Source of the DNA: Halalkalicoccus subterraneus
GTDB taxonomy: Archaea; Halobacteriota; Halobacteria; Halobacteriales; Halalkalicoccaceae
DNA length: 43,408 nt
Assembly: GCF_003697815.1 (NCBI RefSeq)
Contig: NZ_RDQG01000028.1
Span: forward strand, 1 to 43,408
Direction of reading: 5' to 3'
Positions within the stretch are counted from its first letter, which is position 1. Each line of letters opens with the position of its first letter. The translations under genes were made by a program, and so were the position numbers. The notes under the pieces were generated by a model. The model was given only the letters and a program-made list of their open reading frames with translations. It did no database searches and was not told the origin of the DNA. Below are positions 15,885 to 21,779 of this stretch, piece by piece.

Positions 15885-16399
15885 ATCCCGTTGGTATCGC
15901 TCTCGCTGACCCGCTGGAGACGTTCGATACCGTTGGTCTCGGAGATCACGTCGACGACGGGGTCGGGGACCAGCGACTCCCAGTCGCGGTCCTCGATCAT
16001 GCGCTCTCTGACCTCGGTACCCTCGAGCTCCTCGCGGTTGAACATCGGCGATTGGCGCACCTCGACGCCGGCCTCCTCGAACAGCCGGATCACTAAGGGA
16101 TTGTTCGAGTAGGCGACTTGGAACTCAGGGCTCATCGACTGGACGTGGCTAACCCAGACGGAGTTGCGATCGAGGTCCTCGATGGGGACCGCGTAAGTCA
16201 CCAGCTCGTAGTCGACGAGCGATTTCGTGATCATCATGATGCGCTCGCCGGCGGTGAAGGGATCGTGTATCGAGTGGGAATCACCGGCGCTGCCGATCCC
16301 GAGGACGAGTTCGTCGACCTCGCTTGCGATCCGATCGACCATGCGGTGGTGGCCGTTGTGGTACGGCTGGAAGCGACCGATGTAGAACCCCCGTGTCAT
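15881..16399 (-). CDS. nadM: Nicotinamide-nucleotide adenylyltransferase
   Basis: A 172-residue archaeal-type NMN adenylyltransferase, forming NAD+ from NMN and ATP. It has the nucleotidyltransferase signature GRFQPYHNGHH near the N-terminus (HxGH-type motif), the GIGSAGDSHSIHDPFTAGER stretch that binds substrate, and the GTEVRERM segment corresponding to the family's second phosphate-binding motif. The length is typical. The start at 16399 is supported by a CTTTTGG box A on this strand near 16430. It is divergent from lon across 117 bp and overlaps the SAM hydrolase gene downstream. Confidence 0.95.
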   Translation of the reverse strand: MTRGFYIGRFQPYHNGHHRMVDRIASEVDELVLGIGSAGDSHSIHDPFTAGERIMMITKSLVDYELVTYAVPIEDLDRNSVWVSHVQSMSPEFQVAYSNNPLVIRLFEEAGVEVRQSPMFNREELEGTEVRERMIEDRDWESLVPDPVVDVISETNGIERLQRVSESDTNGI

Positions 16400-16470
16400 C
16401 GTCTTGACCCACCCGACAGTGCGAGCCACCAAAAGCGTAGCGAGTCGTCCACTGAGGGCGGCAGGGAGAA

Positions 16471-16479
16471 AGTATATCA
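16471..16479 (+). promoter_or_regulatory. Box A of the lon gene
   Basis: AGTATATCA in the nadM-lon divergent region is the best TATA-like match before lon. Its centre lies about 42 nt upstream of the ATG, predicting a short leader of some 15 nt. Confidence 0.5.
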
Positions 16480-16516
16480 GTTGCGCAACCCTCGTTTCCA
16501 CCAGCGACCAGATTCT

Positions 16517-18553
16517 ATGAGCAACGAGAGAGACACCGGAGATCGCCCCGTAGACGGGGTGAGCGAGTCGTCGGACATCGATCCCGACGACGCCCAAGAC
16601 GAATCCCCGCAGGACGACTCGGGGGATGGGTTCGGCAGCGATGTCGACGTCGGTTTCGACGCCGACATCAAGGAGGACGAAAGCGGCCTTCTGGGAGGGT
16701 TGCAGATCGAGTCCACGGAGGACATCAAAGTCCCCGAGAAGCTCGTCGATCAGGTGATCGGCCAGGACCACGCCCAGGAGATCGTCCGCAAGGCCGCCAA
16801 ACAGCGACGGCACATCCTCATGATCGGCGCGCCCGGCACCGGGAAGTCGATGCTGGCCAAAGCGATGACCCAGCTCCTCCCGAACGAGGACCTCCAGGAC
16901 GTCCTGATCTACCACAACCCTGACGACGGCAACGAGCCGAAGGTTCGCACCGTGCCCGCAGGGAAGGGCGATCAGATCGTCGACGCCCACAAGGAGGAAG
17001 CCCGCAAGCGAAACACGATGCGGACCATCCTGATGTGGCTGATCATCATCGTGATCCTCGGGTATTCGCTGTTCATCGGGAACATTCTCTTAGGAATCAT
17101 CGCCGCCGCGATCATCTACCTCGCGTTCAAGTACGCGAACCGCGGCAGCGACGCGATGATCCCGAACCTCCTGATCAACAACGCCGACCGCACCACCGCG
17201 CCCTTCGAGGACGTGACCGGCGCCCACGCCGGCGCGCTGCTGGGCGACGTCCGCCACGACCCGTTCCAGTCGGGCGGCATGGAGACGCCGAGCCACGACC
17301 GGGTCGAGGCCGGCGGGATCCACAAGGCCCACCGCGGCGTGCTGTTCATCGACGAGATCAACACGCTCGACGTGCGAAGCCAACAGCACCTGATGACGGC
17401 GATCCAGGAGGGCGAGTTCTCCATTACCGGGCAAAGCGAGCGCTCCTCGGGCGCGATGGTCCAGACCGAGCCCGTCCCGACGGACTTCATCATGGTCGCG
17501 GCGGGCAACCAGGACGCACTGGAGAACATGCACCCCGCGCTGCGCTCGCGGATCAAGGGCTACGGCTACGAGGTGTTCTTCGACGACACCATCGATGACA
17601 CCCCCGAGATGCGCCGCAAGTACGCCCGTTTCGTCGCCCAGGAGGTCGACAGGGACGGCCGACTCCCGCACTTCACCCGTGACGCGATCGAGGAGGTCAT
17701 CCTCGAGGCCAAGCGCCGGTCGGGCCGAAAGGACCATCTCACGCTCGAATTCCGTAACCTCGGCGGTCTGGTCCGGGTGGCAGGCGACATCGCCCGCGCG
17801 GAGGACGCCGAGTTCACGACCCGCCAGCACGTCCTCGACGCGAAGGACCGCTCGCGCTCGATCGAACAGCAGCTCGCCGATACGTTCATCGAGCGCTACA
17901 GCGACTACGACATCTCGATGAACGAGGGCGGCGTCGTCGGCCGCGTCAACGGCCTGGCGGTCATGGGCGGGGACAGCGGGATCGTGAAACCGATCATGGC
18001 CGAGGTCACCCAGGGCCACGGCGAAGTGATCGCGACGGGCAAGCTTCAGGAGATCGCCCAGGAGTCGGTCCAGAACGTCTCGGCGATCATCAAGAAGTTC
18101 ACCAACAACGACATCAACGAGATGGACGTCCACATCCAGTTCCTCCAGTCCTACGAGGGCGTGGAGGGCGATTCGGCGTCCGTCTCGATCGCGACCGCAG
18201 TGATCAGCGCCTTAGAGGAGATCCCGATCGCCCAGAACGTCGCCATGACCGGTTCGCTGTCGGTCCGGGGCGACGTACTGCCCGTCGGTGGGGTCACCCA
18301 CAAGATCGAGGCGGCCGCGAAGGCCGGTATCGACACGGTGATCATCCCCAAGTCCAACGAGCAGGACGTCATGATCGAGGACGAGTACAAGGACCAGATC
18401 GAGGTCGTCCCCGTCAGCCACATCAGCCAGGTGCTCGACATCGCCCTGGTCGGCGAACCCGAAAAGGACGGGCTGGTCGATCGCCTGAAGAACATCACGA
18501 CCGCGCTCGATCGGGACCGACAGGTCCCGAGCGGCTCTCCGACGCCGCAGTAG
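16517..18553 (+). CDS. lonB: Membrane-anchored ATP-dependent Lon protease (LonB)
   Basis: A 678-residue archaeal LonB. An acidic N-terminal 60 residues precede the AAA+ domain: Walker A GAPGTGKS (104-111) and Walker B VLFIDE (D279, E280). Inserted between them are two membrane spans (about 169-186 and 187-205), the hallmark of LonB and absent from bacterial LonA. The C-terminal protease domain has the Ser-Lys dyad S553 (GDSAS) and K596 (THKIEAA), 43 residues apart as in Lon generally. It degrades misfolded and regulatory proteins at the membrane. The CPBP gene starts 2 nt after the stop, so both are likely co-transcribed. Confidence 0.97.
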   Translation: MSNERDTGDRPVDGVSESSDIDPDDAQDESPQDDSGDGFGSDVDVGFDADIKEDESGLLGGLQIESTEDIKVPEKLVDQVIGQDHAQEIVRKAAKQRRHILMIGAPGTGKSMLAKAMTQLLPNEDLQDVLIYHNPDDGNEPKVRTVPAGKGDQIVDAHKEEARKRNTMRTILMWLIIIVILGYSLFIGNILLGIIAAAIIYLAFKYANRGSDAMIPNLLINNADRTTAPFEDVTGAHAGALLGDVRHDPFQSGGMETPSHDRVEAGGIHKAHRGVLFIDEINTLDVRSQQHLMTAIQEGEFSITGQSERSSGAMVQTEPVPTDFIMVAAGNQDALENMHPALRSRIKGYGYEVFFDDTIDDTPEMRRKYARFVAQEVDRDGRLPHFTRDAIEEVILEAKRRSGRKDHLTLEFRNLGGLVRVAGDIARAEDAEFTTRQHVLDAKDRSRSIEQQLADTFIERYSDYDISMNEGGVVGRVNGLAVMGGDSGIVKPIMAEVTQGHGEVIATGKLQEIAQESVQNVSAIIKKFTNNDINEMDVHIQFLQSYEGVEGDSASVSIATAVISALEEIPIAQNVAMTGSLSVRGDVLPVGGVTHKIEAAAKAGIDTVIIPKSNEQDVMIEDEYKDQIEVVPVSHISQVLDIALVGEPEKDGLVDRLKNITTALDRDRQVPSGSPTPQ

Positions 18554-18554
18554 C

Positions 18555-19259
18555 GTGGCCAACTGGGCGACGTTCGTCGGCCTGACGGGCGTCGTCACCC
18601 TCTTGCTTCTCGCGCTGTCTCACGCCTCGCAAACCGCGATCAGCGAACCCGATTCCGACATCGACGTCGAGCCGACGAGCGGCCTCTTGCTCGTGAACGT
18701 CGCGCTTTCACAGGGCGTCTTTCTCAGCCTGCTTCTCGCCGCCGCGTGGTACACGCAGATTCCCCGTAGCGCGCTCGGCGTCAGTGGTGGGTCGACCGGG
18801 ACTGCGGCGCTCGGTGCCGGTCTCGCGGTCGGGACCGCCCTCTACGTCGCCTCGGAACTGGGTGGGGCGGTCGCCGACCGGCTGGACGTCGAGTACGACG
18901 AGGGGCTCAGAGAGCTCCTCGCACCGGATTCACCGGGCGGCTGGGCGGTACTGTTGGGGCTCGTCCTTCCGGTGATCGCCGTCTTCGAGGAGGTCCTCTT
19001 TCGGGCCGCGCTGATCGGCGCAGTAGCGGCGGGCTACGGCGTTTCGCCGTGGCTCCTGGCCGTTCTGTCCTCGATCCTCTTCGCGCTCGGCCACGGTGCA
19101 CAGGGCACCAGCGGGATCGTCGTCACCGGCCTGCTGGGGTTCGCGCTCGCGGCGGCGTTCATCGTCACCGAGAGCCTGCTCGTGGTCGTCCTCGCACACT
19201 ACCTCGTGAACGCCCTCGAATTCCTGATCCACGAGGGGATCGGGATCGAGTGGCTCTAA
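18555..19259 (+). CDS. CPBP-family intramembrane metalloprotease
   Basis: A 234-residue membrane protein with about six to seven spans and a complete CPBP/Abi signature: EExxxR as E145-E146-VLF-R150, a His in FALGHGAQG, and HYLVNALEF (HxxxN/B type). Members process prenylated proteins or peptides or act as membrane proteases; the substrate here is unknown. The start is a GTG one base after the lon stop codon, so it must share the lon transcript. I recall a similar lon-abi order in Haloferax. The 3' end overlaps the convergent MGMT-like gene by 4 bp. Confidence 0.92.
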   Translation: MANWATFVGLTGVVTLLLLALSHASQTAISEPDSDIDVEPTSGLLLVNVALSQGVFLSLLLAAAWYTQIPRSALGVSGGSTGTAALGAGLAVGTALYVASELGGAVADRLDVEYDEGLRELLAPDSPGGWAVLLGLVLPVIAVFEEVLFRAALIGAVAAGYGVSPWLLAVLSSILFALGHGAQGTSGIVVTGLLGFALAAAFIVTESLLVVVLAHYLVNALEFLIHEGIGIEWL

Positions 19260-19714
19260 GGGCTCGATTCGAGCTCCCGAAGCCGTCGGTCGAGCCCTGC
19301 AGGGAGTGCGCTCGGACCGTCGACGACGCGGTGTGAGGGCAGCAGGATCGGAACCGGATTGGCCTCCAGGGCGGCCCGGACGACCCCCTCGTCCTCCTCG
19401 GAATCGAGCCCCGGTACCGTCCGGGTGAGGGTCGCCACGTCCGTCGTCTCCCCGTATGGGACCTCGCGCACCCGTTCGAGCACCGCACGGTGGTCCGTCG
19501 GGACCGTGAGCGCGATCGGGACGTCCTCGAAGTCGTCTGACTCGCCGGCCAGAACGCGCTCGATCTGATCGAGCAACGGGTGGCCACGCGTCGCCTCATC
19601 GGGTGGCTCCTCGGGAATCGAGAGACTGATGACGCGTCGGGAGGCGATCCCGATCCGCACCACACCGAACTCCCCGAGCGCCCGAGCGTAGATTCCCGTG
19701 TCGCTTTCGTCCAT
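19256..19714 (-). CDS. MGMT/alkyltransferase-like protein lacking the acceptor Cys
   Basis: A 152-residue protein aligned by eye with O6-methylguanine-DNA methyltransferase: the helix-turn-helix VPYGETTDVATL (residues 86-96), then a helix with GVVRAALEANPVPILLPSHR. In active enzymes the last part reads PCHR; here the methyl acceptor Cys is replaced by Ser (S127, codon TCA at 19334-19336). It therefore cannot be a classic suicide alkyltransferase. Alkyltransferase-like (ATL) proteins, which flag alkylated bases for other repair pathways, also lack this Cys but usually have Trp or Ala. The start MDESDTG is preferred over an upstream GTG-type start. Confidence 0.85.
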   Translation of the reverse strand: MDESDTGIYARALGEFGVVRIGIASRRVISLSIPEEPPDEATRGHPLLDQIERVLAGESDDFEDVPIALTVPTDHRAVLERVREVPYGETTDVATLTRTVPGLDSEEDEGVVRAALEANPVPILLPSHRVVDGPSALPAGLDRRLRELESSP

Positions 19715-19757
19715 ATCGATTGGAGGGCCGAGGGCGACTTCAACCCCGTGGCGCAAG

Positions 19758-19766
19758 TCTTATGTG
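19758..19766 (+). promoter_or_regulatory. Box A of the trpCBA operon
   Basis: TCTTATGTG centred near 19762 lies about 28-30 nt before the trpC ATG at 19792, close to leaderless spacing. A perfect inverted repeat sits between it and the start codon. Confidence 0.5.
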
Positions 19767-19773
19767 CAAATCA

Positions 19774-19787
19774 GTACGTTAGCGTAC
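19774..19787. promoter_or_regulatory. Candidate trp operator (perfect inverted repeat)
   Basis: GTACG (19774-19778) and CGTAC (19783-19787) are perfect inverted arms around TTAG. The site lies between the box A and the trpC start codon, where a bound protein would block transcription initiation. Which protein binds is unknown; no regulator gene is adjacent. Confidence 0.5.
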
Positions 19788-19791
19788 AGTG

Positions 19792-20544
19792 ATGAACACT
19801 AGTGATGCGCTCGCGCCCGCCGTCGAGGCGATCCTTCGGTCGGCCCGCGAGCGCGAAGGGGGGCACGAGCCGCTTGCGGTCGAGGCCCGGTCGTTCCCCG
19901 AGGCGGTCGCCGCCGCGGAGCGCGAGGGACGGGTCCCCGTAATCGCCGAGGTCAAACCCACGAGCCCGACGACGGAGGGCGTCCGGGAGGACGAGCCCGT
20001 CGAGTTGGCTCGAGAAATGGTCGCCGGCGGGGCGGCGGCGCTGTCGGTGCTGACTGAGCCCGAGCACTTCGGGGGGTCGCCCGAAACGCTGGAGCGGGTG
20101 CGCGAGGCCGTCGACGTGCCGGTGCTCAGGAAGGACTTCCTGCTTCGGGAGGACCAGCTCGACGTCGTCGAGTCCGATCTCGTTCTCCTAATCGCACGGT
20201 TCGTCGACGACCTCGCGGGGCTTATCGAAGCGGCGAGAGAACGGGGATTCCAGCCGCTGGTCGAGGTTCACACCCGCGAGGAACTCGAGGAAGCGCTCGC
20301 GGCCGGCGCGGAGATCGTCGGGATCAATAACCGCGATCTCGCCCGGTTGGAGGTCGATCTCGCGACCTTCGAGTCGGTCGCGAAGGAGGCCCCCGAGGAC
20401 GTGCTACTGGTCGCAGAAAGCGGGATCAGTTCGGAGGAGGACGTCCGGCGGATGCGGACGGCGGGCGCGGACGCGCTGTTGATCGGTACCGCCATCATGG
20501 ACGGGGACGTACGCGAGAACACCGAGGAGTTCACCACGCAATGA
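19792..20544 (+). CDS. trpC: Indole-3-glycerol-phosphate synthase
   Basis: A 250-residue TIM-barrel enzyme converting CdRP to indole-3-glycerol phosphate in tryptophan synthesis. Conserved pieces are [13 protein letters not shown] with catalytic E53 and K55, VLRKDFLL with the second catalytic Lys, GINNRDL, VAESGI and [11 protein letters not shown] for phosphate binding. ATG at 19792 is chosen over the GTG directly before it. It is the first gene of trpCBA: its last codons overlap the trpB start by ATGA. The order CBA with trpDEGF elsewhere is common in haloarchaea. Confidence 0.96.
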
Positions 20545-21779
20545 GCACGCACGAGACCAAGTTCGGACGCTACGGCGGCCAGTACGTACCCGAGGCGCTG
20601 ATGCCCGCGATCGAGGAGCTGGAGGACGCGTATCAGCGGTACGTCCTCGAAAACGAGGACGGGTTCATGGACGACTTCCGCGCCCGTCTACGGGACTTCG
20701 GCGGGCGACCCACGCCGCTACAGCACGCCGAGGCGCTCTCGGCGCGTTACGACCGGGAGGTGTATCTCAAACGCGAGGACCTCCTCCACGGCGGGGCGCA
20801 CAAGCTGAACAACGCTCTCGGGCAAGCGTTGCTCGCCAAATACATGGGCAAGGAACGGATCATCGCCGAGACCGGTGCCGGGCAACACGGCACCGCGACG
20901 GCGATGGCGTGTGCCCATCTGGGACTGGACTGCGAGATCTATATGGGCGAGCGCGACATCAACCGCCAGCGTCCCAACGTCTTCCGAATGCGACTGAACG
21001 GCGCGGAAATGAACCCCGTGACGACGGGACGGGGAACCCTCAAGGAGGCCATCTCGGAGACGATGCGCGACTGGGCCACCTCGGTCGAGGACACCCACTA
21101 CGTGATCGGCAGCGTCGTGGGCCCGCATCCGTTCCCGCGGATGGTCCGGGACTTTCAGGCGGTGATCAGTGAGGAGGCCCGCGGGCAGATCGAGGAGAAA
21201 ACAGGACAATTGCCCGACAGCGTGCTCGCGTGTGCGGGCGGGGGCTCGAACACGATGGGGGCGTTCCACGAGTTCATGGGGGAGGATGTCGATCTCTATG
21301 CCGTCGAGGCCGGCGGCAGTAGCCTCGAAGTGGACGAGAAGGGTGGCGTGGCGCCGAACTCCGCGTCGCTTTCCACTGGCAGCGAGGGCGTCCTCCACGG
21401 CGCGCGAACCAAACTGCTACAGGACTCGGACGGCCAGATCATGGAGTCACACTCGGTCTCGTCGGGGCTCGACTACGCGGGCGTCGGCCCCGAACTCGCC
21501 CATCTCGTCGACGAGGAGCGAGTGACTCCGGTGAACGTCGACGACGACGGGGCTCTCGAGGGCTTTCACCGGCTCTCCCAGTTGGAGGGAATCATCCCTG
21601 CGCTGGAGACGGCCCACGCCTTCGCCTTCCTCGAAGAGGAGTACGAGGACTTGGGAGAGGTCGTGATCGTCAACGTCTCGGGGCGCGGAGACAAGGACCT
21701 CGAATCGGTGATCGAGGAGACCGCCGAACGCGAGATCGAAGGGGCACCTGACATGGACGTCTTCCAGGGGGGACTATGA
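20541..21779 (+). CDS. trpB: Tryptophan synthase beta chain
   Basis: A 412-residue PLP enzyme that joins indole and serine to make tryptophan. K88 in [15 protein letters not shown] is the PLP lysine, [15 protein letters not shown] matches the family's central region, and [12 protein letters not shown] is the PLP phosphate loop. The N-terminal [17 protein letters not shown] and length identify the TrpB1 type that works with TrpA. It overlaps trpC and trpA by 4 bp on both sides, so the three are translationally coupled. Confidence 0.97.

Follow-up and report, generated by a model that had tools for sequence, protein, structure and literature searches.

The closest described relatives of the protein analysed here are the MGMT and Ogt alkyltransferases of Pfam family PF01035, represented by SsOGT (4zyd) and M. 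tuberculosis OGT (4bhb), and the Cys-less ATL proteins, including Atl1, E. coli YbaZ and TTHA1564. ATLs are described in PMC10779285 as retaining the Arg finger and Tyr of MGMT, having neither the N-terminal domain nor the Asn hinge, and mostly carrying Trp at the catalytic Cys position. YbaZ, included as a control, has the Arg finger and the Tyr and keeps the active-site His and Glu (read by eye). In TTHA1564, Ala stands at the Cys position. DNA binding has also been removed from an alkyltransferase by engineering: five HTH mutations are reported to abolish it in SsOGT-H5 (PMC7216122), and S100A, R102A, M106T and K110E are given as the four H5 mutations retained against DNA binding in a later variant (PMC9519396).

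We analysed a 43,408-nucleotide stretch of DNA from Halalkalicoccus subterraneus (the window), which encodes a Cys-less protein of this fold that we call the pseudo-alkyltransferase (Table 1). The initial annotation had reported Ser at the catalytic Cys position, giving PSHR, and had concluded that a suicide alkyltransferase cannot work without this Cys; the first statement is confirmed for the window protein, and the second we regard as right. Its coding sequence shares four bases at the 3′ end with the convergent CPBP gene. The open reading frame list gives a longer reading with a TTG start (19256-19756, minus strand), but the ATG is likely the true start, because the Met that it encodes is aligned in 56 of 59 relatives. 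The protein scores 31.3 bits with Pfam PF01035, above the cut-off of 27, and the NCBIfam ogt model scores 27.8 bits, below its cut-off of 46.4; in a Pfam search of the window's genome it is the sole match, with no second PF01035 protein found. An AF2 model built from 58 input sequences (pLDDT 94.0, pTM 0.87) matches archaeal SsOGT (4zyd_A) across both domains (residues 6-152, Z 17.2, rmsd 2.3, 140 aligned), and matches the ATL structure 3gva_A over residues 70-152 only (Z 8.9, rmsd 2.8, 76 aligned). The two-domain MGMT fold is thus present, and the agreement of the model with crystal structures of MGMT in both domains shows that the likeness of PSHR to the MGMT motif is not due to chance.

Table 1 Features of the pseudo-alkyltransferase locus, in positions of the window
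Feature	Position	Strand	Note
Lon-type protease ORF (lonB)	16118..18553	+	Name from position and literature (see text)
CPBP/Abi-type membrane protein gene (presumed product)	18555..19259	+	Convergent with the pseudo-alkyltransferase
Pseudo-alkyltransferase CDS	19256..19714	-	152 aa; ATG start 19712-19714
Glu149 (human Glu172)	19268..19270	-	114/115 family rows; remaining row is a gap
His128-Arg129 (human His146-Arg147)	19328..19333	-	Invariant, 115/115 family rows
Ser127 codon TCA	19334..19336	-	Catalytic Cys position (human Cys145); PSHR where MGMT has PCHR
Asn119, Asn hinge (human Asn137)	19358..19360	-	Kept in 114/115 family rows
HTH recognition helix, residues 106-117	19364..19399	-	Helix in the model; acidic, without Arg finger
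Arg113	19376..19378	-	Human Gly131 position, not the Arg finger; Arg in 96/115 family rows
Val93	19436..19438	-	Position of base-flipping Tyr114; Tyr in 19/19 outgroup MGMTs
trpC (name assumed from sequence and gene order)	19789..20544	+	Divergent from the pseudo-alkyltransferase
trpB	20541-21779		Follows trpC

The pseudo-alkyltransferase belongs to a family found throughout the haloarchaea. Among haloarchaeal genomes at least 90% complete (n=292), which were used for searches with both the family profile (A1) and a haloarchaeal Cys-MGMT profile (A2), A1 returned one match at E<=1e-35 in each of 292/292 genomes and covered 76/76 genera; one homologue, L063, was excluded from A1 owing to an out-of-frame C-terminus. 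The named relatives are haloarchaea. At residue 127, 115 unique family rows read Asp in 106, Ser in six, and Gly, Ala and Cys in one each, and two further basal rows slightly under the score line read Ser (L078) and Cys (L081). Asp, Ser, Gly or Ala thus takes the place of Cys, and Trp occurs in 0/115. A DNA-level search for the pattern NPxPxxxPDHR[VI] found it in 77/81 haloarchaeal genomes vs 0/311 other genomes in a sample of the phylum; the four haloarchaea without it read Ser (G000, G005 and G012) or Cys (G020). The named set was found partly with a PDHRV-containing pattern, so that its 78/80 Asp is biased and is not usable as a count. Taken across these alignments, the residue that characterises the class at the position of Cys is Asp (PDHR), not Ser. 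The suggestion that the Ser form might be a distinct class therefore stands in part: the Cys-less class is real, but Ser is not its defining residue, and when haloarchaeal homologues were collected Ser was not fixed among them, not even within the window's genus. By contrast with this universal family, haloarchaeal Cys-MGMTs are patchy, being recognised by A2 (1e-20) in 101/292 genomes and in none of the other 191/292. Open-access literature searches found no paper describing the pseudo-alkyltransferase family.

Comparison with MGMT and Ogt proteins points to loss of the features that engage DNA. The two groups share the two-domain fold over the full length (Z 17) and the NPxPxxxPxHRV motif, and the family keeps the Asn hinge, His, Arg and Glu. 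In each of the 19 outgroup MGMTs, Cys stands together with Tyr114 and the Arg finger, whereas the family typically has Asp for Cys (Ser in the window), has lost the Arg finger, Tyr114 and the Tyr158 loop, has an acidic recognition helix and carries a longer loop before the helix (34-35 vs 28-30 residues in most rows). The window protein was initially described as keeping an Arg-containing recognition helix, a reading that does not hold: R113 aligns with human G131, the Arg-finger position (human R128) is Gly110 and the helix is acidic. The Tyr158 loop is likewise absent from it.

We placed these changes on a tree of 70/125 family rows, 18/39 haloarchaeal Cys rows and 19/19 outgroup rows. The family forms a single clade (support 100/90), in which five rows from the small-genome families f10 and f12, all Cys or Ser forms, are sister to the crown (99/93). 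Haloarchaeal Cys-MGMTs, although of the same Pfam family and from the same organisms, form a clade of their own (100/100), keep Cys and Tyr and have a near-neutral recognition helix; the sister of the family among MGMTs is a three-way split. Haloarchaeal rows below 150 bits (n=41) include the basal L078 and L081, and clean groups were used for helix, finger and loop counts, with L091 left out of the helix counts as its motif is absent. Mean helix charge, taken as the net charge of the 14 residues preceding the Asn hinge, was -3.11 in the crown (n=119) and -3.80 in the basal rows (n=5), vs +0.23 in haloarchaeal Cys-MGMTs (n=39) and +2.95 in the outgroup (n=19). Since haloarchaeal Cys-MGMTs work in the same salty cytoplasm, the acidity of the family helix is not merely a halophile effect. 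The Arg finger is present in 18/110 crown, 0/5 basal and 19/19 outgroup rows; the Gly131 position carries Arg or Lys in 92/110 crown, 5/5 basal, 0/38 haloarchaeal Cys and 0/19 outgroup rows; and a Tyr158-like aromatic occurs in 1/120 crown, 5/5 basal, 37/39 haloarchaeal Cys and 19/19 outgroup rows. Position 93 reads Val in 81, Leu in 13, Thr in eight, Ile in four and Tyr in three of 115 rows, with other residues in the remainder. Haloarchaeal Cys-MGMTs (L032-L061 and L082-L094) are themselves mostly without the Arg finger, with Val in 25, Ile in 12 and Arg in one of 38 unique rows, so loss of the finger alone is no proof of lost DNA repair.

These distributions allow the losses to be ordered. 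At the family base, the aligned rows show that the Arg finger was lost, the recognition-helix Gly became Arg and the helix turned acidic at a stage when the family still had Tyr114 and the Tyr158 loop and some lineages still had Cys. In crown haloarchaea they show Cys replaced by Asp, Tyr114 by mostly Val and the substrate loop by a shorter DGPSAAP-type loop. They further show that a few lineages later exchanged this Asp for Ser, Gly or Ala, and that Ser arose on two separate occasions in the window's genus, one of them being the window's own Ser. Throughout, the fold, Asn hinge and active-site His, Arg and Glu are shown by the same comparison to be nearly invariant under purifying selection. 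DNA binding thus appears to have been lost before the nucleophile, because the basal rows keep the loop, and two of the five keep Cys, yet have a finger-less acidic helix. Those two, L079:3615-4079 and L081:2996-3442, combine PCHR, Tyr114 and the Tyr158 loop with such a helix, and judged from these residues they are possible natural DNA-blind alkyltransferases of the SNAP-tag kind.

The natural helix also resembles those of alkyltransferases engineered not to bind DNA. SsOGT reads TSPRAVGMALSKNP in the wild type and TAPAAVKTALSENP in H5, and the haloarchaeal consensus has lost the finger, has Arg for Gly with an adjoining Thr (50/110), has Ala-Leu, and has Glu or Asp before the Asn (57/110). 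Scored for four H5-like features, 29/110 crown rows have all four and 27/110 have three, 17/19 outgroup rows have none and 2/19 have one, and the window helix has two. The family profile scores SsOGT-H5 (6ga0) at 43.2 bits vs 39.2 for the wild type (4zye), and SNAP-tag (6y8p) at 40.9 vs 37.0 for its wild type (1qnt). Common to SNAP-tag, SsOGT-H5 and the family are a helix without the Arg finger, Gly changed to Lys or Arg, Met or Gly changed to Thr, and a basic end turned to Glu or neutral. The engineered forms nevertheless retain Cys and still react with free benzylguanine, whereas Cys and the Tyr loop are both missing from the crown family; a closer parallel is offered by the basal L079 and L081, which have the two.

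The gene order lon, CPBP, pseudo-alkyltransferase (convergent), trpC, trpB is common among haloarchaeal loci. In basal genomes the pseudo-alkyltransferase lies by lon, and trpC is absent from the stretch examined. The lonB name in the window is taken from position and from PMC4343526, which presents lonB and abi of H. volcanii as one transcription unit. Because two Cys-bearing outgroup MGMTs (L134 and L136, 2/19 outgroup loci) also have lon nearby, this shared neighbourhood suggests that the pseudo-alkyltransferase is an old lon-linked MGMT, descended from a lonB-linked Cys-MGMT gene. On the other side, a conserved element precedes trpC (window 19759-19788), consisting of CTTATG and a pair of TGTACA-like boxes, spaced by about 20 bases, which read TGTGCA and CGTACA in the window; many further loci, among them L014, L022, L029 and L069, also have the element upstream of trpC. 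We take it to resemble the archaeal TRP box of TrpY, and an open-access search found no literature on TrpY with TGTACA.

Residue 127 is Asp in four of the seven species that make up the window's genus here, Ser in two and Gly in one, and the six congeners alone read Asp in four and Ser and Gly in one each. A one-off loss of Cys was expected to leave Cys in close homologues, and none of the six has it. L003, which groups nearest to the window in the tree (support 85/82, or 88/86 with residue 127 masked), has Asp, the second Ser species, L005, pairs with the Asp-bearing L006, and the two Ser codons, TCA in the window and AGC, come from different codon families. Ser therefore derives from Asp: on these pairings Ser has replaced Asp at least twice in the genus, and the Gly there is also from Asp. 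Pairwise dN/dS among the seven congeners is 0.21-0.38 (window vs its Asp sister, 0.209; NG86, rough at such divergence), by which measure the gene is under purifying selection in the genus. Ser was rejected as a class marker, occurring in 7/70 tree rows scattered over several tree positions, and residue 127 changes state at least eight times across the 70 rows. In the basal group, L078, L080 and L092 (family f10, genus g11) have the Ser codons TCG, TCC and TCT, the latter two one step from Cys codons, and judged by codon and tree position this basal-group Ser is of separate origin from the Asp lineage. A sequencing error, or a mutation confined to this strain, might be suspected from the minority status of Ser and the Asp of the sister species, but the genus data leave this reading almost no probability and we reject it: two other species of the genus also depart from Asp, one with Ser and one with Gly, Asp (GAC or GAT) to TCA takes three base changes, and the gene is otherwise intact, with the low Ser/Asp sister dN/dS given above.

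The explanation that we regard as probable is that the pseudo-alkyltransferase belongs to a universal single-copy haloarchaeal family, derived most likely from a lonB-linked archaeal Cys-MGMT, in which DNA binding disappeared before Cys did and which would now have a DNA-independent binding role. Such a protein would carry out no alkyl transfer and would neither bind nor flip alkylated bases in DNA; by elimination, its remodelled pocket or surface may hold a small ligand or a partner protein, and any small residue would do at position 127. The conserved R113 could still act as a displaced finger and confer some DNA binding. The initial annotation had instead proposed a marker of alkylated bases, which in the manner of an ATL would bind O6-alkylguanine without transfer and recruit UvrABC. 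Like ATLs, the family has a Cys-less MGMT fold with His and Glu kept; UvrA is encoded in the window's genome (1344.7 bits), which has no other PF01035 protein; the 191/292 genomes without Cys-MGMT present a gap that such a protein could fill; and human AGT C145S is described as binding the lesion stably (1t38, PMC10779285). We nonetheless consider an ATL-type lesion marker unlikely, because the Arg finger, which ATLs keep, the flipping Tyr114, which they also keep, and the Tyr158 equivalent are all lost, and the helix is acidic and H5-like. The pseudo-alkyltransferase also differs from ATLs in having the N-terminal domain and Asn hinge and no Trp, and its best two-domain structure match is MGMT, the ATL match being confined to the C-terminal part. 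A winged-helix transcription regulator, for example of the divergent trpCBA operon, would account for the HTH-bearing fold, for the divergent placement beside trpC in many genomes and for the deeply conserved two-box element between the genes, but seems improbable. The element stays with trpC where the pseudo-alkyltransferase lies farther off (L022, L029, L012 and L178), and neither TGTACA nor CTTATG occurs upstream of the pseudo-alkyltransferase in 36/47 non-adjacent rows (adjacency being a rough distance rule, by which some 'non-adjacent' rows are just 150-168 bases away), so by position the element is not its target. The trpC-free neighbourhood of the basal gene and the acidic recognition helix of the crown argue in the same direction.

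A turnover enzyme is a further alternative. Haloalkane dehalogenase forms an alkyl ester on Asp and hydrolyses it, and by analogy Asp127 could serve as the nucleophile of a turnover dealkylase in which His128 and Glu149 would activate water to hydrolyse an alkyl ester formed from a free, non-DNA compound. Asp is nearly fixed in the crown, His and Glu are conserved (115/115 and 114/115), and early loss of DNA binding is what a shift to free substrates would predict. We find this very doubtful, as several lineages, in which purifying selection is seen where measured, keep the gene after exchanging Asp for Ser, Gly or Ala; the protein of the window, without a nucleophile, would be dead; and the Tyr and the loop that bind guanine have been lost. 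Because YbaZ keeps both residues, moreover, invariant His and Glu are no proof of catalysis, and their conservation may be structural. It is equally doubtful that the family records a stepwise natural conversion, in which the f10/f12 stage would act like SNAP-tag on free alkylated guanines, the crown Asp-His-Glu would form a turnover enzyme with the ester of a free metabolite on Asp127, and the chemistry would have been lost again in a few lineages including the window's.

An MGMT-like gene has probably been reused here for another job. Name transfer from the PF01035 match would call the protein a DNA-repair enzyme, when it lacks features of catalysis and base flipping that such work requires. 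How O6-alkylguanine is handled in the approximately two thirds of haloarchaeal genomes with no recognised Cys-MGMT becomes a testable question, and a universal single-copy gene with a recorded order of loss, DNA binding and then the nucleophile, makes a good case of enzyme repurposing whose role is directly testable in model haloarchaea with genetics. The homologue left out of the family profile, L063:3157-3684, shows a C-terminal frame change after DAPSAA, a frameshift or assembly error.
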